From Hyphococcus flavus (GTDB lineage Bacteria > Pseudomonadota > Alphaproteobacteria > Caulobacterales > Parvularculaceae): 64,000 bases of DNA. Shown in pieces: positions 1 through 11,207 of the stretch. The translations under genes and the position numbers were made by a program. The stretch spans positions 2,371,501 to 2,435,500 of the forward strand of contig NZ_CP118166.1 of assembly GCF_028748065.1 (NCBI RefSeq), written 5' to 3'. The notes below the pieces were generated by a model that was given only the letters and a program-made list of their open reading frames with translations, was not told the origin of the DNA and ran no database searches. Each line of letters begins with the position of its first letter. Within the stretch, counting starts at the first letter, position 1.

Positions 1-201
1 TCGGATAAAGACTATAGAGCGGAAGTTGCTGAGGTTAATCGAGTTTGGGAGCAAAATGAGCAATCCCGTAAAGATAAATTAGCTGCGGCTGGTTTTGACG
101 TTGATGAGCGTGACACTGCCAATAAATCATACTTTGATGAGAAAACAGGACTGCGGTTGAGACCTATCTCAAAGCCGTCTGTATCAAGATTTAAATCATA
201 G
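1..201 (+). CDS. C-terminal end of an unrecognised protein
   Basis: An open frame enters from the left edge and stops at TAG 199-201, giving the last 66 residues. The piece is highly charged (many Lys, Asp, Glu and Arg) with an Arg/Ser/Lys-rich end, and has no motif I recognise. Codon use is AT-rich like the next kilobases, so it probably belongs to the same accessory element. A short inverted repeat (arms at 254-259 and 269-274) follows 50 bases later but has no T-run, so it is a weak terminator candidate. Real coding is likely because the frame is open from base 1, but the protein family is unknown. Confidence 0.45.
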   Translation, partial: SDKDYRAEVAEVNRVWEQNEQSRKDKLAAAGFDVDERDTANKSYFDEKTGLRLRPISKPSVSRFKS

Positions 202-326
202 CTCATTTAAATCATCTCAGGTCTACGTAGTTTTACTATTTGTCTTGGGCGATTTCTGAGAACATTTTTCAGAAGAGGTCTTCAAATATCATATTAAATG
301 GAACATTCGGGTAGGTAACTTAAAGG

Positions 327-342
327 CGCGAAATGTTTCGCG
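327..342. promoter_or_regulatory. Inverted repeat upstream of the AlpA-like gene, candidate operator
   Basis: CGCGAAA and TTTCGCG form perfect 7-base arms around a 2-base centre. It lies 70 bases before the ATG of the small HTH gene at 413. The tight symmetry fits a dimeric repressor site, which often controls excisionase-type genes in mobile elements. The binding protein is unknown, and it could also be a short RNA hairpin. Confidence 0.35.
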
Positions 343-412
343 AATTAGGTGAGTTTTCCTATGAAGTGACCTGTTCAACTATCCTGTGGATCCGGCGCGA
401 ACCCAAGGCAAC

Positions 413-646
413 ATGGAGATTGATAAGTTGAACCTAGCATCCGAATACCCATCGCTTTTGAATACAGAACAAGCAGCGCGTTATCTTGGCGTCTCTGCCT
501 CGTTTCTCGCCAAAGCGCGTGTGAATGGAAGTCCGTCAATTCCGTTTACGCGAATCGGTGTGGCCGTCCGCTACCGGAAATCCGATCTGGACGCATTCAT
601 TGACGAAAATATGAAAACAACCACCAGCGAGCCAAAGGCCGCATAA
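413..646 (+). CDS. AlpA/excisionase-type helix-turn-helix protein
   Basis: A 77-residue protein with the HTH_17/MerR-like layout of AlpA and excisionase proteins. It has a Leu-Asn-Thr-Glu-Gln-Ala-Ala helix, then a turn and the usual Tyr-Leu-Gly-Val-Ser, followed by a wing around Thr-Arg-Ile-Gly and Val-Arg-Tyr-Arg-Lys-Ser-Asp-Leu. Such proteins bind DNA to control excision or expression of prophages and integrated plasmids. The frame opens upstream at GTG 386, but ATG 413 is preceded by AAGG at good spacing and removes an unconvincing leader. It heads a run of small co-directional genes typical of a mobile element. Which role (excision or repression) it has cannot be told. Confidence 0.7.
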   Translation: MEIDKLNLASEYPSLLNTEQAARYLGVSASFLAKARVNGSPSIPFTRIGVAVRYRKSDLDAFIDENMKTTTSEPKAA

Positions 647-693
647 GAAAACGGCCCGCCGCGTGAACGGCAGGGCCAGAGGAAATTATCACA

Positions 694-870
694 ATGACTG
701 AGTTTAAGAATCCGCGACGCGGAAACAATACCCCTTTATCTGAAATCAGCCTCGCGGCTGCATTCAGGCTTCACTTAATTCGCGAGCGCTTCGGCATCGA
801 CAGCCCCACAGCGCGCGCCATCTGTGAAATTGCTTTCAGCGCCCTTGGCGATGGAGGGCGCTATGACTAA
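694..870 (+). CDS. Small hypothetical protein, 58 aa
   Basis: A short gene that starts at ATG 694 behind AGAGGAAA and ends at TAA 868-870. Its stop overlaps the next start (ATG 863) by 8 bases, so the two are likely translated together. The product begins with a basic patch, then a predicted helix rich in Ala, Leu and Arg, and contains one Cys. I recognise no family. It is supported by its ribosome-binding site, the overlap and its place in a row of mobile-element genes. Confidence 0.5.
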   Translation: MTEFKNPRRGNNTPLSEISLAAAFRLHLIRERFGIDSPTARAICEIAFSALGDGGRYD

Positions 871-1096
871 GCCCACCACCGCACAACGAAACCCGATCCG
901 CGCCATTCGGCGTCATTGTCTCAACTGTTCTGGTGGGAGCCCTATCGCGGTTAAAGAATGCCCGTCCGCAACCTGCGCCCTCTGGGCTTTCAGGATGGGC
1001 GAAAACCCGTACCGCGCCCCAGCCACCAAAAAACAAAAAGCGCAAGCCCTGAAAAATCTCAGCGCAGCGCGGGCGGCGCGCAATGCCGTCACATAA
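863..1096 (+). CDS. Small Cys-rich (zinc-binding type) mobile-element protein
   Basis: A 77-residue basic protein with a CxxC pair (His-Cys-Leu-Asn-Cys) followed about 12 residues later by Cys-x5-Cys, then Leu-Trp-x-Phe-Arg-x-Gly-x-Asn-Pro. This pattern is common in short phage and plasmid proteins of unknown role, and the four cysteines probably hold a zinc ion. ATG 863 is preferred over an upstream start in the same frame because it overlaps the end of the preceding small gene. The tail is Lys/Ala/Arg-rich. It overlaps the next gene by 14 bases, which supports one transcript. Nucleic-acid binding is likely but unproven. Confidence 0.55.
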   Translation: MTKPTTAQRNPIRAIRRHCLNCSGGSPIAVKECPSATCALWAFRMGENPYRAPATKKQKAQALKNLSAARAARNAVT

Positions 1097-1511
1097 CAAA
1101 ACTGGCCGATCAAAAAAGCTTGGCCAATTTGTTCCCATAACCAACCCAATGGCGAAATCCGCGGCATGGCGCTCCCTAAGCGGTGGGGCTGTGAAGGTCT
1201 ATGTCGAGTTGCACTCCCGATATAACGGGAGAAATAACGGCGACCTAAGCCTATCTTATGCTGATGCTGCAGCTCTTTTACAGCTAGGGAAATCCACCAT
1301 CAAACGTGCCTTCGACGAACTCACCGAGAAAGGGTTTATTATCCCTATGCGCAAAGGGCATTTTTACGGACGCCGCGCCGCAACCTGGGCTGTCACGGAT
1401 CGATCAATTGACCTTCCTAAGCACGCCATGGCGACAAATGCATGGAGAGAATGGAAACCGGCATCGCAAAAATTAATATCCGGTACCGAGGCGGAACGCA
1501 AAGCCGCATAG
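1083..1511 (+). CDS. Helix-turn-helix protein of replication-initiator type
   Basis: A 142-residue protein. Its middle (about residues 30-95) reads as a winged helix: Trp-Arg-Ser-Leu-Ser, a Tyr-Val-Glu-Leu-His helix, then 'KSTIKRAFDELTEKGFI' as recognition helix and start of the wing. Similar proteins sit next to AlpA-like and Cys-rich genes in alphaproteobacterial mobile elements, where they are called replication or helix-turn-helix proteins. It overlaps the preceding gene by 14 bases and is the last of the four-gene run. Whether it starts replication or only binds DNA is not shown; no initiator catalytic motif is visible. Confidence 0.55.
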   Translation: MPSHNKTGRSKKLGQFVPITNPMAKSAAWRSLSGGAVKVYVELHSRYNGRNNGDLSLSYADAAALLQLGKSTIKRAFDELTEKGFIIPMRKGHFYGRRAATWAVTDRSIDLPKHAMATNAWREWKPASQKLISGTEAERKAA

Positions 1512-1660
1512 CGTTCCATTTGAGGACTGAAAAAATGAATCGCTGCGGCTTTGGTTCCGCTGGGGTACTCGTCGGCGCCAGTTTCCGGATTTTTGCGTAC
1601 CGTTTGAGGACTACCTATAGAGTCTACCATACGCTGCGGCGTTCTTTGGGGCCTGACAAA
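1512..1660. repeat. Imperfect tandem repeat of about 90 bp
   Basis: CGTTCCATTTGAGGACT at 1512 recurs as CGTACCGTTTGAGGACT at 1596, and CGCTGCGGC at 1541 recurs at 1632. TTTGG-type ends follow both. The two units are about 84-91 bases apart, so this looks like a diverged tandem duplication. A frame continues through part of it but its product has no recognisable features, so I do not call a gene. The rest of the gap up to 1986 holds a GC-rich patch (about 1672-1725) and a poly-G run near 1750, with no supported gene. Confidence 0.45.
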
Positions 1661-1986
1661 ATCGGAGCGTAAGGCGCGCGGCGCGGGGGCCATCCCAGAG
1701 CCCGAGCGCCAGCGCGCCGCCTCAGATGCGGAATGTTATTCCTAATCGGGGGGGGGAGAGCGTGAGCATATACGCCGCACAATAGCCACCGCACCGGCGA
1801 TCACTCACAATATTTCGTATCTGCAATTCAAATTTTGGGGGGATGATCGTTTTTTGATCTTGTTCGACGTTGACCGGACGAAACTCCACGAATGAGCTAA
1901 ACGCTCTCAAAAAGCTTGCGCATCAGCAAAGCACTCTTTTATCGAGCGGGAAAATTCAGGTTAATCACTTGATTTCGAGAATATAA

Positions 1987-2571
1987 ATGGGCGGATGGGG
2001 AAGCGGTGGCGGACGTAACGCCACAAAACTGACTTCTTTGCGCAGGATCGACCTAGCCGATTTGCGGCGGCTCAACATGCTGCGTGAGATTGGCCCGCGC
2101 CTGTTTTACTGGTCACGCAATGGCGAGCGCGTCGCCTCGGTCGGAGTTGAATACCGGCGATCCTGCCTCGTGCTCGATTATCGGGTGAGAAATAGAGGCG
2201 AGGATTGGGTGCATATTCGTGAGGAAATCCCCCTCGCGCGTACAGAACAAAAATTTGGCGGAGAACGGCTGTGGTTGGTTTGTCTGACATGCCGCTGCCG
2301 CTGCCGGACTATATTCGCAGGCGATTATTTCCGCTGCCGGAAATGTTACCGGGCCACCTATCCCAGCCAATATGAGGATGCCGACAGTCGGCTCATTTCG
2401 CGCGCTGAGGACGTACGCATCAAGCTGGGCGCCTCCGGAAGTATGGATGAGCCCTTCCCCAGAAAACCAAAATGGATGCGATGGAAAACCTACCACCGCC
2501 TCTCACGCAAGGATGAAATCGCGAGCGAGAGATTTTGGAATATGCTGGGCGAGCTGGATGAGCGGTTTTAG
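1987..2571 (+). CDS. Zinc-ribbon mobile-element protein (MGGWGSGxG type)
   Basis: A 194-residue protein of a widespread uncharacterised family recognised by its Gly-rich start, Met-Gly-Gly-Trp-Gly-Ser-Gly-Gly-Gly. The centre has a zinc ribbon: Cys-Leu-Thr-Cys-Arg-Cys-Arg-Cys near residues 97-105, and Cys-x2-Cys within 'FRCRKCYRATY' about 15 residues on. The end carries the typical Lys-Pro-Lys-Trp-Met-Arg-Trp-x-Thr-Tyr-x-Arg-Leu. The family is found in integrated plasmids and prophage-like regions of proteobacteria, and its role is unknown. It stands alone after a 475-base gap. Confidence 0.65.
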   Translation: MGGWGSGGGRNATKLTSLRRIDLADLRRLNMLREIGPRLFYWSRNGERVASVGVEYRRSCLVLDYRVRNRGEDWVHIREEIPLARTEQKFGGERLWLVCLTCRCRCRTIFAGDYFRCRKCYRATYPSQYEDADSRLISRAEDVRIKLGASGSMDEPFPRKPKWMRWKTYHRLSRKDEIASERFWNMLGELDERF

Positions 2572-2674
2572 AGCACCATAAAAAAACACGGAACATCATA
2601 TTTGTTGAAAACATGTGAGGCAATGTGGATCAATTTGCCCGCAATTATCGCAACAACCACAGCTTATCATCTCC

Positions 2675-3460
2675 TTAGACCATTTTACCTTCAACCAGAG
2701 GCGATTGTGGCAGAAAATGCATTAGAGGAGAGACACGCGAAGCATTGTAAATCAAGGTTTTTGGAAACTGAGTAAGAATTGCTTCAAGAAAAATTAAATC
2801 GCGATTTCTTGCATGCGCGCCCTGCTGATATCCAGGAAGATAGTGCCGCTTATCAACTTTGCCCTTTACACGTTCAGGGTACTCGTAGGAGTAGCGTCGA
2901 GTCTTATCGACATACAAGTCTGCCCCTATGAGGTGAATTTCTTTAAAACCAAGTACGGCTGCCGCTGCGAGCGTCCTGAAACCTTCAGAAGGTAATGGCC
3001 TACCCATCATTTCCCGCCCAAGAACGGGATTCAACGCGATGATCGCATAATGATCGGAAGCGGGTGTGAATAGCTGATTGTAGAGAGCGATCTTTTCCAA
3101 GTCTTGGTCTTCACGACGGAAAATGAACGGTGTGAAAAAGGCGTCAATTTGGTAGCCCTTCACTTCAATAGCGTTCTGCAATTCGTCGTAAAATACGTCT
3201 TGGTCAATGCATCCAAAATAGCCGTCGATCTTTTTACCAAAGTGAGGGTCCGACTCAAAGAAAAACGTATTCATCCGGAACGTAACGCCGCGACCGATGA
3301 CAAAATCCGGATTGATCTCAAGACTGGTTGGGCCCGGGCAAATGATAAAGCATGGCTCGTCACGGCGAGCGTGAAGGCTCGCCGAGACAGGATCAGCCTC
3401 TATACTAAACTGGCTATACAATTTACTGGGAAACAAGTCGGGTGCTGTAATCTTGCGCAT
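2675..3460 (-). CDS. GT42 (CstI/CstII-like) sialyltransferase-family protein
   Basis: A 261-residue protein that reads like the Campylobacter CstI/CstII sialyltransferases. It has a nucleotide-binding Gly-Pro-Thr-Ser-Leu loop (about 43-47), then 'RMNTFFFE' (62-69) followed closely by Gly-Lys-Lys-Ile. The block 'GFRTLAAAAVLGFKEIHLIG' falls near 160-179. A His (206) in Ala-His-Ala-Arg-Asn-Arg-Asp sits at the place of the CstII general base His188. The family moves CMP-sialic acid-like sugars onto glycans. No CMP-sialic acid synthesis genes are in the window, so donor and acceptor are unknown. It is transcribed away from the neighbouring GT4 gene and is AT-rich, suggesting transfer. Confidence 0.65.
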   Translation of the reverse strand: MRKITAPDLFPSKLYSQFSIEADPVSASLHARRDEPCFIICPGPTSLEINPDFVIGRGVTFRMNTFFFESDPHFGKKIDGYFGCIDQDVFYDELQNAIEVKGYQIDAFFTPFIFRREDQDLEKIALYNQLFTPASDHYAIIALNPVLGREMMGRPLPSEGFRTLAAAAVLGFKEIHLIGADLYVDKTRRYSYEYPERVKGKVDKRHYLPGYQQGAHARNRDLIFLEAILTQFPKTLIYNASRVSPLMHFLPQSPLVEGKMV

Positions 3461-3803
3461 TGATGTTTTTTCAGTCCATATTTTTAAAGCCGTTCGCTGG
3501 ATTATGAGGCGGTGGCAATGAAGGAGTAGCGAACATTACAGACGGCCACGGTTCGTTTTTGAACAAAATATTCCCCGATGGGGACGTGGGGCAACCCTTG
3601 TCCCTAATCAATTTGATGCTGCGCTAGGAAATCTGATAGTGACTCAGAGATATGATGTGCAATTTTACATCAATAGTCTATGGTCGAATCCTTTTGTGCG
3701 CTTTGTAGTCGCGTTAGCGTTTCGGTCTCTTCAAGGTGCCGCATAACTAAGGTGACAGAAAAGGGTGTGATCCAACATCCATCAATACACCCACTAGAAG
3801 ACC
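3461..3803. other. AT-rich divergent intergenic region
   Basis: This gap separates the divergently transcribed GT42-like and GT4 genes, so it should hold both promoters. I see no clear -35/-10 pair, repeat or small gene that I can support. Confidence 0.4.
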
Positions 3804-5096
3804 ATGATGAATAACGAAGACGAGAAAACTCAATCGCATGATGCCGAATCCTATCACCGGGATCTCGGTTCAGCACGATGCCGAATACAAGAATTAGAAC
3901 AAAGAATTCGAAATATAACTAAAGAACGGGATGCTTTACGCAATTCGACTTCATTCAGAATTGGTCAGACACTGATGAAACCGCTTGCCGTGATCCGGCA
4001 AGCCTTATTTGTTAGAAAGCCGGTTGAGAAACAGCCAGTAGAGGTCAAGCCTCCCCCCCAGAAGAGAGCCGGGACAATAGATGTCTTGGTCCTTTGTCAC
4101 GATAACTCCAAGTTATCTGGAGCTCCGGTGCCGGCAATAAGCTACTTTCGTGAGATGAAGCTACGGAATGAATCGGTACGTTTGATCGTGTTGAAGGAGT
4201 GGGAACCATCTTTAGATACCGTAAAGCCCTTTCCACCTGCGAAGAGGGTTATCGTTAATTCAATCGCTTCGTTGCAGTGGAAGGCTGTACGCGTATTGTT
4301 AGAATCCAATTGCGATAATGTTGCGTTATATTTGCATGAAACCGCTTGGACAATTCAAAAATTTGAAAAACAGTGCCCAGAAGGAATGGCAACATTGCGG
4401 AGGATTGCAGCAAGGCTGCATGTATTAGCTGTGTCCAAAGCACAAAAGGAGTACCTCGAAAACCTACTCCCTGTACGCCGGACAACTATAGTCCGAAACA
4501 TAACACCAAACGCAAATCTTGACCCTTGCCAAGTTCGCCCTAGTGGCTTGGTTGATATAAATCCATCAATCATCATGGTTGGAACCATTCAGGCTCGCAA
4601 GGGTGCTAAATTGTTTTCTGAAATTGCAGACATGGCAAAGAAGCGCGGCTATATATGGCGCTTCAAGTGGGTAGGGCACGAAATAGAACCCAATCTCTAT
4701 CTTTCTCCGAATGTCGATTGGTTGGGTGTTTGCACAGGCGAGGCTCTGACTTCCATATACAAAGAGGCCTCGCTTTTTTTACTTTCCTCGGTAGATGATC
4801 CGCTTCCATTAGCGGTCCATGAAGCAATGAGTTACGGCGTTAACGTCGTTTGCTATCGAGGCGTGGGAACAGCTGAAGTCATAGGGGAATTACCAAGCTC
4901 CTTCATCTTTGATAATTACACGGTGGATGAAGCTATTGAGGCAATCAAGAAGGCACTGGCCACCTCGTATAGCGGAATCGATGTCTTTAACACCGTCAAA
5001 CCTTTTATTGACCAGAAGCTTTTTGCAGATGTCGTTAATAAAGCCATTGGGCACGTGCCCAGTTCCAATCATGACGGAGAAAATAAAATCTGTTAA
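3804..5096 (+). CDS. GT4-family glycosyltransferase with N-terminal coiled coil
   Basis: A 430-residue GT-B fold enzyme. Residues 23-48 form a coiled coil, followed by Ser-Thr-Ser-Phe-Arg-Ile-Gly and a Pro-Leu stretch, a start often seen in multi-sugar transferases. The catalytic part begins near residue 90. The C-terminal domain has Val-Gly-Thr-Ile-Gln-Ala-Arg-Lys-Gly (259-267) for the nucleotide sugar. The usual E-x7-E pair appears as Asp332-x7-Glu340, a conservative change. It probably adds sugar to a surface glycan or protein; the substrate is unknown. Its stop overlaps the stop of the convergent LRR gene by 3 bases. ATG 3804 and ATG 3807 are both possible starts. Confidence 0.75.
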   Translation: MMNNEDEKTQSHDAESYHRDLGSARCRIQELEQRIRNITKERDALRNSTSFRIGQTLMKPLAVIRQALFVRKPVEKQPVEVKPPPQKRAGTIDVLVLCHDNSKLSGAPVPAISYFREMKLRNESVRLIVLKEWEPSLDTVKPFPPAKRVIVNSIASLQWKAVRVLLESNCDNVALYLHETAWTIQKFEKQCPEGMATLRRIAARLHVLAVSKAQKEYLENLLPVRRTTIVRNITPNANLDPCQVRPSGLVDINPSIIMVGTIQARKGAKLFSEIADMAKKRGYIWRFKWVGHEIEPNLYLSPNVDWLGVCTGEALTSIYKEASLFLLSSVDDPLPLAVHEAMSYGVNVVCYRGVGTAEVIGELPSSFIFDNYTVDEAIEAIKKALATSYSGIDVFNTVKPFIDQKLFADVVNKAIGHVPSSNHDGENKIC

Positions 5097-6349
5097 TCGT
5101 TTTGCCGATCAAAACTTATACTGTCGCCGAACAAATGGCGCGATGCCATAGGTATAGTGGATAAATCAAGTTGAGGATTTTTGGTTGCGTCGATGCGGCG
5201 TAATTTTGGAAGCTCGTGAAGCCGATGTGGCAAAGCTTTCAGTGCTGTCATTCGAATTCCGAGTTCTCTCAAATTTTGAAACCCATACGAAATCGCATCG
5301 ATGTTCGTTATTGGATTAGCGCTAATCGTCAATATTTCAAGTTTTGGAAGCTCTGCTAAACTTGCATCAAGTTGCGTCAATAAATTTCTATAAAATGTAA
5401 CCCCGCGGAGTGATGTCATCTCTCTCATCCATGGGGGCACACTAGAAATTGTGTTCTTTGCCAAGTTTAGAGTGTGGAGCTGTTCTAATCCTGATATGAC
5501 AGAGGGTATTTCTTTGAGTGAGCACGCTGCTGCAACCAACTGTTGTAAGTCGTTCAAACGACGCAGCTCAGTAAAATCGTATATAGGGTTTCCAGTGATG
5601 TTTAATTTGGCAATTGACGGCGGGAGGTTTTCCGGCAGATCGGTGAGCCCCGCATTTTCAATTGACAAACTTTCCAAGCGCCTCAAAGAGCTAACCAAAC
5701 CGAAGACTTTACTAACATGTTGTGGGGTAAGGCCCTCAAGTAAGCTTCTTGGGTAAGCTCTGCCATCGGTAAACGAAAGAGAGCGACAATAGCCAAGGTG
5801 GTCACATTCAATTCTGGGCGGCTTCGATAGAAGCTGGCACAAGTCATCAATTTCTTGTTCCACGCGAATGGAATTCAAATTCCCGCTGACATGCTGAATT
5901 ACAGAGTCTTTTGTTGTTGCTACTAATTCATTCGTTACCAGTTTATCGAACCATTCGCTAAAATGGACCTCCCATTGACCACGAAGAGGCGTGTCAACCA
6001 GAAGTGGCGTATGTGTAGCGCATCCCCTAGCCCGAAGCATCGAGACCGCTTCGTTAGCAACTGGATGATCTGATGCATTCGGGACTCGATAATCGCCCGT
6101 AACGCAAACAGCAAATCGCGTCTTATTAGCTTTTCTATCGCGTAGCCATTCTTCCACATTTGAAGGCATGCGTTCTTCATTCACAATGGGGAAGACAATC
6201 AACTCAATATCGACATCCCTGTGATCATCGGTGCACTCGAACGACACTTCAGTGATCGATACCTGGTCAATATTTGACCGTCGGCTAGCGATATTGAAAA
6301 TCAGCCTACTACTGCGATTGTCCCAATGTCTAAATCTTATAGAAATCAT
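5093..6349 (-). CDS. Leucine-rich-repeat protein
   Basis: A 418-residue protein without signal peptide or membrane segment. From about residue 225 to 405 it has some seven repeats of the LxxLxLxxNxL type, with phrases such as 'LNITGNPI', 'LNLAKNTISSVPP' and 'LTISANPITNID'. This forms a curved surface that usually binds protein. The N-terminal 200 residues are a separate domain that I do not recognise, alternating predicted strands and helices. Its ATG overlaps the stop of the aminotransferase gene by 4 bases (ATGA), so the two are probably translated together. That coupling suggests it works with, or is controlled by, the glycan pathway. Its exact role is unknown. Confidence 0.7.
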   Translation of the reverse strand: MISIRFRHWDNRSSRLIFNIASRRSNIDQVSITEVSFECTDDHRDVDIELIVFPIVNEERMPSNVEEWLRDRKANKTRFAVCVTGDYRVPNASDHPVANEAVSMLRARGCATHTPLLVDTPLRGQWEVHFSEWFDKLVTNELVATTKDSVIQHVSGNLNSIRVEQEIDDLCQLLSKPPRIECDHLGYCRSLSFTDGRAYPRSLLEGLTPQHVSKVFGLVSSLRRLESLSIENAGLTDLPENLPPSIAKLNITGNPIYDFTELRRLNDLQQLVAAACSLKEIPSVISGLEQLHTLNLAKNTISSVPPWMREMTSLRGVTFYRNLLTQLDASLAELPKLEILTISANPITNIDAISYGFQNLRELGIRMTALKALPHRLHELPKLRRIDATKNPQLDLSTIPMASRHLFGDSISFDRQND

Positions 6350-7554
6350 CGCCGTACATCGGCTCCTGAAGACATGTTTTCAGAGATTATTTGCGTGAGG
6401 GCATAAATGACATCATCAACATCATCTTGAGTCATGGAAGAGGAAAGAGGGAGAGAAATGATCTGCTCAGATAGTTTTCGCGCTATGGGCAAAGAGTCTG
6501 GGCTCATGCCCAGTGTGCCTTGATAAAATGGTTGTAGGTGTGTTGATTGGAAATGAACGCCGCTGCCAATGTTGTTTTTTCTGAGCGCGAGAATCATCTC
6601 GTCACGTGTAATGCCTAACGCATCACAGTCCATTCGTACGATATATAGATTATATGCAGATTTTCGATCATCGCGCTGAATTAGCGGCTCAACTCCTTTG
6701 ATACCTTTCAGCTTATGGTCATAAACAGCAGCGAGTTTGCGACGTACCTCGATGCAATGCGGAAGCCTACGAAGTTGATGTATGCCGATTGATGCAAGAA
6801 TATCCGGCATACCATACTTGAGTCCTGGCTCGACAAGGCGCCAGTGCAATTCGCCCGTACAATATCGGCGCCAAGAATCATTAACTACGCCATGCTGACT
6901 TAATATACGGACGCGATCAGCGTAGCGTGAATCACTTGTCGTAAACATTCCACCTTCCCCACAAGTGATATTTTTCGTGGCATGAAAGCTAAAGCAGCAA
7001 TTTCGCCCTTTGCCGCCAATCATTTCGCCTTTGTAATCTGCTCCAAGTGCGTGGGCGGAATCTTCGATAATCGGTATGCCGTGCTTTAAAGAAATCTGTA
7101 TCAATTCGTCCATGTCACATGGCTGTCCCGCCATATGTACAGGAATGATCGCTTTGGTACGTTTTGAAATTTTTTGCTCTACTTGTTCAATATCTAGGTT
7201 CAGCGTATCCGGATCTATATCTGCGAAGATTGGGCGGGCACCTGAGTGCCAAATCATATTTGATGTTGCGGGCCAGCTAATTGGCGTAGTAATTACCTCA
7301 TCCTCTCTATTGCCACTCTCGCCGATACCCAACGCAAGCATCGACAGATGAAGCGCAGCTGTACAGGAGCTAAGCGCCACGGCGTATTCAGAACCGAGTA
7401 GGTCGCAAATAGCAGATTCAAACTCGCTGGATCTTGGGCCTGTTGCTAGCCAACCACTGCGTAAACAACGTACAACTTCCTCTATCTCTTCCTCGCCTAT
7501 TTGAGGCGATGTAAGAGGCAAAAAGGTATTTCGCCGTGCTGAAATTTCTTTCAT
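6346..7554 (-). CDS. DegT/DnrJ/EryC1-family sugar aminotransferase
   Basis: A 402-residue PLP enzyme of the DegT/DnrJ/EryC1/StrS family. The family signature is clear: 'SGWLATGP' near 33, 'SSCTAALHLSMLALGIG' near 62 for the cofactor phosphate, and 'EDSAHALGA' at 164-172 with the PLP-contacting Asp. 'SFHATKNITCGEGGMF' carries Lys194, which forms the Schiff base. Such enzymes put an amino group on 4-keto or 3-keto NDP-sugars used for LPS, capsule or flagellin glycans. No dehydratase or acetyltransferase lies beside it, so the sugar is unknown. It starts a two-gene operon with the LRR gene and is AT-rich. Confidence 0.85.
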   Translation of the reverse strand: MKEISARRNTFLPLTSPQIGEEEIEEVVRCLRSGWLATGPRSSEFESAICDLLGSEYAVALSSCTAALHLSMLALGIGESGNREDEVITTPISWPATSNMIWHSGARPIFADIDPDTLNLDIEQVEQKISKRTKAIIPVHMAGQPCDMDELIQISLKHGIPIIEDSAHALGADYKGEMIGGKGRNCCFSFHATKNITCGEGGMFTTSDSRYADRVRILSQHGVVNDSWRRYCTGELHWRLVEPGLKYGMPDILASIGIHQLRRLPHCIEVRRKLAAVYDHKLKGIKGVEPLIQRDDRKSAYNLYIVRMDCDALGITRDEMILALRKNNIGSGVHFQSTHLQPFYQGTLGMSPDSLPIARKLSEQIISLPLSSSMTQDDVDDVIYALTQIISENMSSGADVRR

Positions 7555-7710
7555 CTAACTATGCACCTTAAACGCCGAGCACATCAGCAGCACTCAACTC
7601 ACGCTCCTCAATTAGGACGAGTGCATGAACCATCATCCATCTCTCCAATAAAACAGTTCCCCGCCAGAAAGCTGCGAATTAAGCTGTAAAGTGTCAATTC
7701 GTTTTGAGTA

Positions 7711-7740
7711 TTGACTCTGTCGTTCTCTTTTTGTTCTAAT
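7711..7740 (+). promoter_or_regulatory. Promoter with overlapping LexA (SOS) box
   Basis: GTTC (7722-7725), seven bases and GTTC (7733-7736) match the alphaproteobacterial LexA site GTTC-N7-GTTC exactly. A -35-like TTGACT at 7711 and a -10-like TCTAAT at 7735 with an 18-base spacer place the box inside the promoter, 45 bases before the GTG start of the Y-family polymerase gene. LexA bound here would block RNA polymerase until DNA damage. Confidence 0.75.
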
Positions 7741-7781
7741 CAGCCCCCGAGCCATATGGCCCGGCTGTATGGGGACGGCCA

Positions 7782-9035
7782 GTGCGTAAACCGGAGACGA
7801 TAGAGCGCCTATACCTCGACTTTGACGGCTTTTTTGCGTCTGTCATGCAGCAGGCGTTTCCGGCCCTTCGCGGGCACCCGGTTGGCGTCATTCCGTTTGA
7901 AACGGACAAGGCGAAATATACGACCGTCATCGCCTGCAGCAAGGAAGCGAAGGCGCAAGGCGTTCAAAACGTCATGCGCACGCCGGACGCGCAAGCGCTT
8001 TGCCCGGACATTGTTCTTGTCATGCAGCGGCCCGATTTATTCAGGCGCGCGCATAACGCTTTGCTTAACGAAATCTCATGCGAAATCCCTATCGACACAG
8101 CGAAGTCGATTGATGAGCTGACGTGCAAACTCGGGAAGCGTGACATTGTTGATCCGCAAGGGTTGGCGGCGCGTCTTAAAAAACGCATTGCTGAAAATGT
8201 CGGTCCGCATATTACTTGCTCAATCGGATTTGCCGCTAATCGGTTGCTCGCTAAGCTAGCCTGTAAAATGGATAAGCCAAACGGTGTAACAATCTGGGAG
8301 CCCGAGGGCGCGCTTCAGTATTTATCGGCGCTGCCGTTATCCGAAATTTCCGGCATTGGCGGGCGCATGGAAAAACGCCTGAACAACGCGGGCATTTACA
8401 CCACCGCACAGTTAACAGCGACACAGCCGAAACAGATGCGCGCCTTATGGGGCAACGTAAACGGCGAACGTATGTGGTACGGCCTTCATGGCTACGACAT
8501 ACAGGCGCAGCCGACCGGGCGCGGCATGTACGGGCATGGGCGCGTTTTGCCGCCGGAGCTTCGAAAACTTGATAAGGCGAGAGATACGGCACGGCTCTTG
8601 TTGACGAAAGCAGCACGGCGAATGCGGCGCGATTTCTTCTATGCGAACAAGCTTTGGTTATGGCTGGACCTTCGCGAAGGCGGTTGGTTCGGGCAGCGGG
8701 ATTTGCCTTGCGTCAATGACGATCAGGCCATTTTAGCTGCGCTATCGCATCTATGGGACAAGGCGGCTTTTGAGTTGCCGCGGCGGCATGAAATCGTTCG
8801 CGCTGGCGTCACGCTTCTGGACCTGATGCCTGCGGACGGACGCCAGCTCGATCTGTTTTTGAATGACGACCGCGACCGCCAGCGTTGGGAGCGCATTACG
8901 TTTTCAATCGACGCGCTCAATCGGAAATTTGGCAAGCGGGTTGTTTCAGTAGGGCCGTGGAAGCCACCGCCGGGTGGATATGCGGGCGGCAAGATTGCTT
9001 ACACACGCATTCCTTCAGCGGAGGATTTCTGGTGA
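7782..9035 (+). CDS. Y-family (DinB/UmuC-type) translesion DNA polymerase
   Basis: A 417-residue lesion-bypass polymerase. Catalytic residues are in place: Asp13 in 'YLDFDGFFASV' and Asp111-Glu112 in Ser-Ile-Asp-Glu. A helix-hairpin-helix-like 'LSEISGIGGRMEKRLNNAGI' follows near 190. 'GRVLPPE' starts the little-finger region, and Gln-Leu-Asp-Leu-Phe near the end is a beta-clamp binding motif. This is not the housekeeping DinB; similar genes are carried on plasmids and islands. GTG 7782 is the only in-frame start before the conserved Asp; the upstream ATGs are in other frames. It is preceded by a LexA box and overlaps the next small gene, forming an SOS operon. Confidence 0.88.
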   Translation: MRKPETIERLYLDFDGFFASVMQQAFPALRGHPVGVIPFETDKAKYTTVIACSKEAKAQGVQNVMRTPDAQALCPDIVLVMQRPDLFRRAHNALLNEISCEIPIDTAKSIDELTCKLGKRDIVDPQGLAARLKKRIAENVGPHITCSIGFAANRLLAKLACKMDKPNGVTIWEPEGALQYLSALPLSEISGIGGRMEKRLNNAGIYTTAQLTATQPKQMRALWGNVNGERMWYGLHGYDIQAQPTGRGMYGHGRVLPPELRKLDKARDTARLLLTKAARRMRRDFFYANKLWLWLDLREGGWFGQRDLPCVNDDQAILAALSHLWDKAAFELPRRHEIVRAGVTLLDLMPADGRQLDLFLNDDRDRQRWERITFSIDALNRKFGKRVVSVGPWKPPPGGYAGGKIAYTRIPSAEDFW

Positions 9036-9286
9036 GCTGGCTTGATGACATGCACCTGCGCGATTTGGACGATAGCCAGGCGATTGAAGCGACGTGCAAT
9101 AAGTGCCTGCATACTTGGCTGCAAAGTCCGGTGCAGTTGCTTTTGAAAGTTGACCACCGTGACGTCACGCTTGCCGAAGTCTCGCGTGAACTGAAATGCC
9201 GCCGCCCGCACTGCGGTCATTGCGGTGCCCAAATTTCGTTAGTCAGGAATGAAGATACAAGCGGATTCGTTGGCGGAATGCCGTAA
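9032..9286 (+). CDS. Small CxxC protein coupled to the Y-family polymerase
   Basis: An 84-residue protein starting at GTG 9032, overlapping the polymerase stop (GTGA), with GGAGG at 9020-9024 as a strong ribosome-binding site. It has Cys-Asn-Lys-Cys near residue 22, then Cys-x4-His-Cys-x2-Cys near 56-64, a likely zinc site. The overlap means it is made together with the polymerase under SOS control, so a role in damage response or in that polymerase's action is reasonable. I know no characterised relative. Confidence 0.65.
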   Translation: MSWLDDMHLRDLDDSQAIEATCNKCLHTWLQSPVQLLLKVDHRDVTLAEVSRELKCRRPHCGHCGAQISLVRNEDTSGFVGGMP

Positions 9287-9354
9287 AAGGGTCTTAGAAG
9301 GGGGAGTGTTTTGAGGAGCCGATTTGCGCAACGTCTGACTAACTATTTGTGGGA

Positions 9355-10068
9355 CTACTCTAACTCAAAAAATACGTGCGCAACTGGCTTATCCTTAGAA
9401 CCATTAATAGATTCGAGATATGCTGTCACAGTATAATTTTTTAAAATTTGGTTGAGCATAGGTGCACGTAGCCTATTCACATATCCGCACAACTGATTGC
9501 GAAGGAAAATGCCGACAGCATTTGGGTCGTATTTATTTTGTGGTTCGTGCCGAAATTCCACCTGGCTATGGAGGATTTGACCAGTAAGATTCTTTGCATA
9601 GTAATGGTAACCCACTACTTCGTGAAAATACTGGCAACCTTTAGAAGCAGATTCCAACGTATCAATTATTGAATACCCATCGCTTGCTAATCGTGCTTCG
9701 GTATACCCAAGCATTGCGAAAGTGCTGATATTCACATCAGGATTAATACGGAACTGAGCTAAATATTTTTCGTAGTCAGGACGGTCTCGACGTGGCAGGC
9801 GTTTGCTTAAAACGTCAAATATTCGCTGAGGTTCGCTGCTGTTCCCTCGGTCATTCCCGAAAAGAACATCAAAACCTTCATTTAGTGCTAGTGAGAAATC
9901 TTCGGTATCGCTTAGCCATCTGAAAAGTATTTTATCGCGCTGCCGCTCAAAAATTCCCACAGGAAAATGACGGCGAGACTTGCGCGTATCGACTGGCTTC
10001 CAAGCAAGGATCAACTTAGAAGGCTCACAGATTTTTGTAATTAGGCGCATAGGTTCTACTGAAGACAC
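9355..10068 (-). CDS. HIRAN-domain protein
   Basis: A 237-residue protein whose end (about 165-230) fits the HIRAN domain: Val-Glu-Phe-Arg-His-Glu-Pro, then 'NKYDPNAVGIFLRNQLCGYV' and a Pro-Met-Leu helix. HIRAN domains, known from HLTF/Rad5-type helicases, bind single-stranded 3' DNA ends or damaged DNA; free-standing bacterial forms are linked to phage and mobile DNA. The first 150 residues are not recognised but include an Arg-rich segment near residues 90-95. The gene overlaps the end of the HipA-like kinase gene by 13 bases, so the two form one unit, and this protein is a candidate partner, antitoxin or DNA-sensing part. Confidence 0.65.
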   Translation of the reverse strand: MSSVEPMRLITKICEPSKLILAWKPVDTRKSRRHFPVGIFERQRDKILFRWLSDTEDFSLALNEGFDVLFGNDRGNSSEPQRIFDVLSKRLPRRDRPDYEKYLAQFRINPDVNISTFAMLGYTEARLASDGYSIIDTLESASKGCQYFHEVVGYHYYAKNLTGQILHSQVEFRHEPQNKYDPNAVGIFLRNQLCGYVNRLRAPMLNQILKNYTVTAYLESINGSKDKPVAHVFFELE

Positions 10069-10973
10069 TCCAATAACATAGCGGCTCGTTTATCGACGAT
10101 TGAACTTACTAGTACGGCTCTCTCGCGGGAAAAGTATGGCTCAACTTTAAAATCAGGCAGTACGGCAAGGGTTTGTTCAAAACAAGCACGCTTTGAGTTT
10201 GCTATCCGGTAAATTTCTTCACCGGTTTTTGAGTACAGGTTGAGTAGTTCACTGATTACGTCAAAGTGGCCTTGTGTTTGATTCTTTTCATCACCAGTCA
10301 TGTGGTGACAGCCTTTAGATACATAGGCTTCAATATCAACGTTGGATATATTATTTTCGGAAAATTCATAGCCTAAGCTAGTTCCATTGTCGAATATTGG
10401 CGATAAGCGGTACCGTGCATCTGATAGATCACCAACTCGACGAAGTAAGCCCCAGTTCTCCGGGTGCCGATCAGTGTTTCCAATTAATGCATCAAAGGTA
10501 GCTGCCTGCGTCCACCACTCGAGTGGCCTTGTGCAGCCAGCTACGTCACAGGCTCGAATATTTGTCATTAGTGAGTGAGGCCGATCTTCTCTCTGTGCAC
10601 CATAGGATGGTTCGTAAGCTGACAAGAGCGTATGTCCCGAAGTTAACTCTTGATAATATTTTTCGCGTGGCCGGTATCCGAACCATTCCACTAGAACTCC
10701 CGAATTTTGTTCTTCGGAATTGACTGCAAAATAGGCTCTCGGGACGACTATCTCACAATCCATACTTAATGCGTAAGCGAGAATTTCAGACCAAACTTGG
10801 TGACAGCGCCAGCCATAGGCAATTTTGTAAAGATAGCGACGATTAGGTCGTATGAACGATTGCGGGGATGTTTCTGGTGATACAAGTAGGCGTTTTGGTT
10901 TGGCGCCGACCGGATAAATCGACTCACATAACCAAGAAGAGACATCGATTATCTGATCTGGTTTCTGTAGCAA
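10056..10973 (-). CDS. HipA-like kinase, single-domain
   Basis: A 305-residue protein with the HipA/CtkA kinase core. Lys50 in Tyr-Leu-Tyr-Lys is a candidate ATP-binding lysine. 'FDALIGNTDRHPENW' (160-174) holds the catalytic Asp168 and Asn173, and 'SPIFDNGTSLG' (191-201) holds the metal-binding Asp195. E. coli HipA, about 440 residues, has an extra N-terminal domain that is missing here. HipA kinases phosphorylate proteins such as glutamyl-tRNA synthetase and cause growth arrest; others act on host or unknown targets. No HipB-like HTH gene is next to it; the downstream overlapping gene encodes a HIRAN protein instead. It is the first gene after tRNA-Asn, behind an inverted repeat. Confidence 0.72.
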   Translation of the reverse strand: MLQKPDQIIDVSSWLCESIYPVGAKPKRLLVSPETSPQSFIRPNRRYLYKIAYGWRCHQVWSEILAYALSMDCEIVVPRAYFAVNSEEQNSGVLVEWFGYRPREKYYQELTSGHTLLSAYEPSYGAQREDRPHSLMTNIRACDVAGCTRPLEWWTQAATFDALIGNTDRHPENWGLLRRVGDLSDARYRLSPIFDNGTSLGYEFSENNISNVDIEAYVSKGCHHMTGDEKNQTQGHFDVISELLNLYSKTGEEIYRIANSKRACFEQTLAVLPDFKVEPYFSRERAVLVSSIVDKRAAMLLECLQ

Positions 10974-10995
10974 AACAAATTCAATTCTTGGTCAC

Positions 10996-11019
10996 GTCAT
11001 TCACTTGGAAAAGAATGAC
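10996..11019 (-). promoter_or_regulatory. Inverted repeat before the HipA-like/HIRAN operon
   Basis: GTCATTC and GAATGAC are perfect 7-base arms around 10 bases, 23 bases upstream of the kinase start. The place suits an operator over the promoter, as in toxin-antitoxin operons that repress themselves. A second hairpin (arms at 11065-11071 and 11085-11091) lies further upstream, beside the tRNA. Confidence 0.45.
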
Positions 11020-11131
11020 CGCATATCGTCATCTTATTTTTCAGTTGGTAGCTTGACGGTAGCCCATGCTTTCACGACTTCAGTAAGCATGGATGTTAGT
11101 CATTATTTTCGTTGTAAAAACAGTCATTTAA

Positions 11132-11207
11132 TGGCTCCCCGAACTGGACTCGAACCAGTGACCCGCTGATTAACAGTCAGCTGCTCTACCAACTGAGCTA
11201 TCGGGGA
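11132..11207 (-). tRNA. tRNA-Asn (GTT)
   Basis: A complete 76-base tRNA with encoded CCA. The acceptor stem pairs TCCCCGA with the 3' side, the D-arm is AGCTCAGTTGGTAGAGC, the anticodon loop has GTT, and the T-loop is TTCGAGT. Its 3' end faces the accessory genes on the left, the usual arrangement when an island has integrated into a tRNA gene. Confidence 0.97.

Follow-up and report, generated by a model that had tools for sequence, protein, structure and literature searches.

A hipIN-type kinase and HIRAN-protein pair at the tRNA-Asn end of a genomic island in Hyphococcus flavus

What does a short HipA-like kinase do when its partner carries a HIRAN domain and the pair lies beside a tRNA gene? 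The question is raised by a locus in a 64,000 nt stretch of Hyphococcus flavus DNA (GCF_028748065.1, contig NZ_CP118166.1, positions 2,371,501 to 2,435,500, forward strand; hereafter the window), which a sequence-only reading had described as a two-part switch, with the HIRAN protein as sensor of DNA state and controller of the kinase. The pair is, almost beyond doubt, a member of the hipIN family, which was named by Gerdes et al. (2021; PMC8262856) and is therefore not new; its partner protein, HipN, combines a HipS-like part with HIRAN. Kinase (HipI) and partner are encoded at the tRNA end of an integrated genomic island that has its integrase at the other end. That HipN senses DNA state and controls HipI is plausible and was already a hypothesis of those authors, whose proposal was that HIRAN activates the kinase on recognising phage DNA ends (PMC8262856); pairs of this type had thus been predicted earlier to act as toxin-antitoxin or anti-phage switches.

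HipI starts at TTG 10973, the first common start codon in frame, and matches Pfam HipA_C from residue 23 (E = 5.6e-11) and the PADLOC model PDC-M03A (E = 1.1e-32), with CtkA (PDB 3akj) as its nearest solved structure (E = 1.2e-4 for the single sequence and 3.8e-20 for a 7-sequence profile). Couple_hipA, the HipA N-terminal domain (N-subdomain-1), was not matched in the kinase by the Pfam scan, and an NCBIfam scan gave no match above the curated cut-off (one weak match for the kinase and none for the partner). HipI is thus a HipA-type kinase without the HipA N-terminal domain, as the sequence-only reading had it. Asp168, Asn173 and Asp195, which had been singled out as residues of the HipA core, are at the positions given for them and are identical in all of 113 aligned kinases (112 distinct relatives plus the window), as are Arg169, His170 and Pro192; Lys50 and Glu63 are each found in 111 of these sequences, Gly23 in 110 and Lys27 in 109, the exceptions being all or nearly all gaps. 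Of the motifs of hipIN kinases, the Gly-rich loop and the catalytic and Mg-binding motifs are present, and since the catalytic residues are kept HipI is expected to be catalytically active.

HipN, encoded directly downstream on the same strand, matches PADLOC PDC-M03B in its longer form (E = 3.9e-26). It ends in a HIRAN domain, as had been proposed and as in hipIN: the Pfam match lies above the curated cut-off, and a profile of 47 aligned HipNs matches the HLTF HIRAN structures 5bnh, 2mzn, 4xzf, 4s0n and 4xzg (E = 1.1e-6 to 1.5e-6; 4xzf 1.1e-6) as well as 3k2y (E = 5.4e-9). The view of a HIRAN partner taking the place of HipB stands in so far as no helix-turn-helix (HTH) match was found in the partner by Pfam, but HipN is not HIRAN alone, and its HipS-like N-terminal half had been missed. 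Couple_hipA (PF13657) was matched in three of seven HipN members scanned with an E limit of 1 (best 4.4e-6), and these members align with the window HipN along its length; the HipS-like half expected of a hipIN partner is thus found at family level and is likely to be the controlling or antitoxin part of HipN.

The pairing is nearly constant. GTDB genome contigs were scanned with a 7-kinase profile, giving 351 stretches with 325 relatives, and the best 80 of the 325, chosen by similarity to this profile, are the genome loci referred to below (three, L049, L056 and L084, have profile scores identical to seeds L002, L006 and L010 and are probably those seed genomes). HipN lies directly downstream in 78/80, including L104 where it is cut by a contig end and is still recognisable; it is fused to the kinase in one (L115) and hidden by a contig end in one (L112). 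Adjacent or fused in 79/80 loci, the two genes are not rare neighbours, and the refutation that the sequence-only reading had named for itself fails; as the loci were picked by kinase similarity, the 79/80 figure describes one clade. In viral contigs, an IMG/VR profile scan gave 46 loci, several of them on near-identical contigs and so not independent; 43 of these have a HipN match, in 15 cases fused to the kinase, and these make up 15 of the 16 fused loci counted, the fused gene of phage 899 coming on top of the 16. A viral scan using the single window protein gave no matches.

The spacing of the two genes is not constant. A 13-base overlap had been described, which requires the GTG start of HipN at 10068; homologue alignments begin at ATG 10050, leaving a 5-base gap to hipI. 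Among 103 separate pairs (own locus included, one pair without an assigned start, and starts taken from a script preferring ATG near the first position of the profile) the offsets vary, with a 4-base overlap the commonest (41/103), which speaks against the 13-base overlap as a conserved trait. Upstream of hipI there is no open reading frame (ORF) of at least 60 aa on the minus strand before the tRNA gene, so that neither the hipBA nor the hipBST layout is found. A consensus scan of the same interval, which is weak evidence, detected no minus-strand promoter or terminator, and hipI may thus be read through from the tRNA. The inverted repeat described upstream of hipI is present at the distance given, but it is not above chance as a regulatory element: of 2000 shuffled versions of the 158-base gap, 477 contain one or more 7-base repeats.

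Compared with hipIN as described (PMC8262856), the window pair shares the short kinase without N-subdomain-1, the kinase motifs and the downstream HipS-like and HIRAN partner; it differs in having Tyr at the putative HipA Ser150 position, and its island and attachment-site setting is not mentioned in the parts of Gerdes et al. (2021) covered. HipL (PMC8262856) has the three domains of hipIN in the same order, but in one chain where the window has two genes. Both window proteins match the two component models, PDC-M03A and PDC-M03B, of one phage defence candidate in PADLOC, although PDC-M03 has candidate status only; the name was not found in the literature searched, and presumably originates from the preprint of Payne et al. 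(2024), to judge from the PDC naming in PMC12988326. Like the window pair, hipBST combines a minimal kinase, HipT, with a separate lid-type antitoxin, HipS, which inhibits HipT by wedging Trp65 (PMC10627512); unlike hipBST, the window has no HTH gene, and its lid protein carries HIRAN and is encoded downstream rather than upstream. It differs from hipBA in having no adjacent HTH protein HipB. In the DS-6/HipAD pair, too, a HipA-like kinase has a partner other than HipB. The pair defends E. coli from phage, and changing a predicted catalytic residue abolishes the protection, but the partner is a DUF3037/DUF1829 protein, not HIRAN (PMC13092281).

The boundary with a tRNA gene, remarked on in the sequence-only reading, is the attachment site of an island. 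The tRNA-Asn gene sits 158 bases upstream of hipI and is co-directional with it; a 49-base repeat of its 3' half, with an integrase at the far copy, makes hipIN the tRNA-proximal cargo of an integrated island (Table 1). Beyond the far repeat lie a MarR gene (5e-13) and then a topoisomerase IV/gyrase subunit A gene (8.6e-151; parC-like). In the relative G027 the parC-like gene is followed by the same MarR gene (84% identical), a 46-base copy of the tRNA end at 93%, other genes and, where the contig stops at a gap, 22 bases of a tRNA end; in G007 the tRNA-Asn and MarR genes are 8.5 kb apart with other genes between them and no second repeat. Both relatives lack the kinase, and a clean empty attachment site was not seen in these two; their differing contents mark the tRNA-Asn site as variable.

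Table 1. Positions of the pair, its domains and motifs, and the surrounding island (window positions unless stated otherwise).
Feature	Position	Strand	Remarks
hipI, short HipA-like Ser/Thr kinase, 305 aa	10056..10973	-	TTG start; Pfam, PADLOC and structure matches
Gly-rich loop of kinase, G23-A-K-P-K27	10893..10907	-	G23 in 110/113, K27 in 109/113 aligned sequences
Catalytic and metal-binding motifs, N166-T-D168-R-H-P-E-N173 ... D195	10389..10478	-	D168, R169, H170, N173, D195 invariant in 113/113
hipN, HipS-like and HIRAN protein, 231 aa	9355..10050	-	ATG favoured by homologues; 237 aa from GTG 10068
HipS-like (HipA N-subdomain-1-like) half of HipN, approximate limits	9679..10026	-	Couple_hipA in family members
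HIRAN domain of HipN	9403..9624	-	Pfam HIRAN E 3.2e-6, residues 149-222 of longer form
7-base-arm inverted repeat GTCATTC / GAATGAC	10996..11002 / 11013..11019		Near arm 23 bases upstream of hipI TTG
tRNA-Asn(GTT)	11132..11207	-	3' half is the attachment site
49-base direct repeat, near copy	11130..11178		Exact; tRNA-Asn 3' half
49-base direct repeat, far copy	G000:C1:2369207-2369255, outside window		Exact, 13,423 bases from near copy
Tyrosine integrase	G000:C1:2369426-2370607		Starts 170 bases from far repeat copy, on its island side; Phage_integrase 1.3e-21, Arm-DNA-bind_3 4.4e-16
Genomic island, part within window	1..11130		Guanine-plus-cytosine content 0.482 vs 0.552 for window right of tRNA

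This layout recurs among relatives. Using a simple longest-ORF script for gene calls, as in the neighbour, flank and G488 analyses, a same-strand tRNA gene was found at most 300 bases upstream of 7 of 75 modules (those of the 80 genome loci with enough flank) and of 3 of 519 non-module genes in these loci (Fisher p = 3.5e-5, with genes treated as independent); a tRNA gene at most 300 bases downstream was found in just 2/80. In L079 (Paraburkholderia bannensis) a tRNA-Arg gene is followed by hipIN, an integrase-like gene and, 7.0 kb away, an exact repeat of 50 bases of the tRNA end. In G488, which belongs to the same family as the genome of L072 (a Legionellales metagenome-assembled genome), the order is tRNA-Met, hipIN, 12 called ORFs, a 118-aa integrase-arm piece (5.3e-13) and a 49-base copy at 90%. 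In all three islands (window, L079 and G488) the integrase begins by the far repeat and reads inward, so that a circular form would place hipIN and the integrase on opposite sides of the attachment site. The literature searched, with preprints outside its scope, yielded no report of the tRNA-hipIN-integrase layout.

Elsewhere hipIN is alone between repeats. In L072 (5750-7762) it occupies a unit of 1933 bases bounded by the tRNA-Met gene, itself downstream of an rpoD-type sigma gene, and by an exact 25-base repeat of the 3' end of that tRNA, with no recombinase gene called inside; in L047 (5177-7313) the unit measures 2116 bases, with the tRNA-Glu 3' end on one side and a 21-base copy of it on the other, and hipIN points toward the tRNA. 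Exact direct repeats of at least 21 bases within 1.2 kb on both sides were found in 5 of 119 usable loci (L152, L042, L106, L072 and L047; L088 was left out as its module start falls before base 1), against at most 16 bases in 183 control placements. L042 (5748-7781) has hipIN between 69-base repeats, the repeat being situated where a conserved stretch ends; the two flanks are 249 bases apart in the relative G503 (L243) versus 2497 in L042. The case for L106 and L152 as module-flanking sites is weakened, as their repeats are integrase gene ends and may be tandem-island scars. Among tRNA-adjacent modules, five have repeats (window, G488, L079, L072 and L047) and five were searched and have none: L041 and L039 within 40 kb, and L053 (19.9 kb), L080 (5.2 kb) and L043 (8.0 kb) up to the contig end; this tally leaves out L061, and L112 was covered by its short locus only. 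Integrase-like ORFs occur in the flanks of 11/80 genome loci, at a distance of about 100 bases or less from the module in 5, as counted with a profile built partly from the module-adjacent integrases themselves.

Neighbouring genes point to restriction and to prophages. The nearest four called genes per side were surveyed in 121 loci (120 plus Escherichia phage 899). Genes of HsdS or HsdM clusters (one member per cluster Pfam-checked) are among them in 12/121, and in six (L057, L064, L065, L069, L077 and L078) hipIN comes directly after an HsdS-type gene, which belongs to a type I restriction system. An Rv2179c-like 3'-5' exonuclease gene (two members Pfam-checked) is directly upstream in 20/121 loci; these lie on viral contigs or in phage 899 throughout, and the 80 genome loci contribute no case. 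These 20 loci encode 15 distinct exonuclease proteins; the portal cluster and the replication-endonuclease cluster occur in 19 each, together in 18, and we read the loci as P2-like prophages.

Given these features, the reading that we favour, and towards which we lean without great confidence, is that hipIN acts as a DNA-state-controlled kinase switch on the tRNA-Asn island, serving both abortive defence and island retention. We infer that HipN would bind HipI by its HipS-like half, in the way HipS binds HipT, and keep the kinase off, while the HIRAN half would couple this inhibition to the state of the DNA. The signal would be free 3' or single-stranded DNA ends, which arise when a phage enters or replicates, when DNA is cut by restriction or when the island excises. 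Such ends would detach HipN or change its grip; freed HipI would then phosphorylate a component of translation, by analogy an aminoacyl-tRNA synthetase, and growth would stop. Such an arrest could serve abortive defence and also favour retention of the island. The toxin-antitoxin logic of HipI and HipN seems to us probable, while triggering by DNA ends in the window copy is put forward tentatively and with slightly more doubt than belief. The module poses the question of whether a DNA-end-binding domain can switch on a translation-arresting kinase during invasion; from the recurrent island layout, the restriction neighbours and the minimal repeat-flanked copies a role in mobile-element conflict may be expected, and such copies are worth testing.

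Several observations weigh against the switch. Residue 149 of the window HIRAN domain is His, as in 2 other HipNs, where 40/47 have an Arg that aligns with an HLTF Arg which we take to be R71, and residue 214 is Ser, where 35 of the 47 have Arg and 9 Lys; DNA-end binding by the window HIRAN may thus be weak. An R71E change in HLTF prevents 3'-OH end binding (PMC11366124). Couple_hipA was not matched by the window HipN alone in the Pfam scan. The kinase has no Ser or Thr at what is presumably the position of HipA Ser150: Tyr20 is found here, as are Phe or Tyr in 92/113 aligned kinases, and Ser18, two residues away, is seen in just 7/113. None of the nine island proteins other than hipIN has a PADLOC match (0.001), the exonuclease family of the prophage loci is widespread in phages, and no experiment on any hipIN module was found in a literature search that was not exhaustive and did not include preprints.

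The strongest competitor, which we hold to be unlikely though well worth weighing, is plain toxin-antitoxin addiction, in which HipN neutralises HipI, HIRAN binds DNA just for localisation or autoregulation, and the module retains the island without sensing phage. It fits the position of the module, which in three integrase-bearing islands lies at the attachment end and in other loci stands alone between repeats, its patchy occurrence (1/99 other relatives) and the lack of PADLOC matches among the nine other island proteins. There is also a parallel in Shewanella putrefaciens: HipAB, likewise of HipA type, is encoded on an island inserted in tRNA-Trp and reportedly stabilises it, although with a HipB partner, another island and another tRNA (PMC8978831). 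Addiction alone sits less well with the finding that HIRAN domains studied so far bind DNA ends (PMC8262856), and the type I restriction neighbours and prophage carriage fit defence better; the two roles are, however, compatible.

A more far-reaching proposal, to which we give little credence, is that hipIN is an attachment-site module. In circular islands it would adjoin the attachment site on the side opposite the integrase, and it could persist or move at tRNA ends as a cassette of some 2 kb that lacks an integrase, with HIRAN tying the kinase to the DNA ends or intermediates that come with integration, excision and invading DNA. If true, an attachment-site hipIN would be island guardian and defence switch at once.

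Slightly less credible still is that the window holds a drifting copy with intact frames, whose HIRAN function is weakened or lost so that only a kinase and its inhibitor are left. The His and Ser at HIRAN positions 149 and 214 and the TTG start would suit this, as would two departures of the kinase from consensus, Asp at residue 130 (Gly in 105/113) and Gly at residue 227 (Trp in 72/113); but both frames are open at full length, the catalytic residues and HIRAN residues Asn172, Asp175, Ala178 and Gly189 are retained, and the window is not alone in having His. A signalling kinase with a DNA-damage sensor, neither toxin nor defence, is the least probable reading, as it draws on HIRAN being a replication-fork and DNA-end domain in HLTF but agrees poorly with the island setting in the window, with repeat-flanked or prophage copies elsewhere and with the lack of a match in 98/99 other relatives at E 0.001.

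The module is sparse among genomes close to its own. A kinase match (E 0.001) was found in 2/100 such genomes (own genome included), the own one and one at 38% identity, and plasmid records gave four matches, just one covering 80% of the query. A class-wide search with the PADLOC profiles gave some match in 78/385 genomes; of the 30 loci returned (L006-L035), four have a full HipN (the own genome and three profile seeds), four the HipS-like part only and 22 none. In L009, L011, L012 and L013 the gene after a short kinase matches HipN in its HipS-like part alone, and these loci resemble hipJS rather than hipIN. The kinase match is split over two ORFs in L068 (5971-6915, same frame) and L115 (1588-3551, different frames), possibly through decay of the copy or assembly error.

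The island also carries HTH_36, CST-I-like, glycosyltransferase, leucine-rich-repeat (LRR), DegT and Y-family polymerase genes. The LRR protein gene (window 5093-6349, minus strand; LRR_4 2.1e-15) overlaps the end of the glycosyltransferase gene with its own end, and the Y-family DNA polymerase gene (window 7782-9035, plus strand; IMS 4e-33) lies on the 3' side of hipIN and is convergent with it.

The idea that the exonuclease is specially partnered with prophage HipL is weakened, the family being common in phages (648 of 50,697 records), and this neighbour is only a lead; another DEDD nuclease is reported to adjoin HipA and HIRAN genes in Gram-positive bacteria (PMC11706625). Escherichia phage 899 (L003, PV533660.1) encodes at 5428-7632 a fused HipL of kinase, HipS-like and HIRAN parts, annotated as a hypothetical protein and located directly after a 3'-5' exoribonuclease gene. 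Couple_hipA is matched in the middle of this protein (E = 7.3e-6), and its gene is present in 61 of 5426 complete E. coli genomes at an identity of at least 99%.

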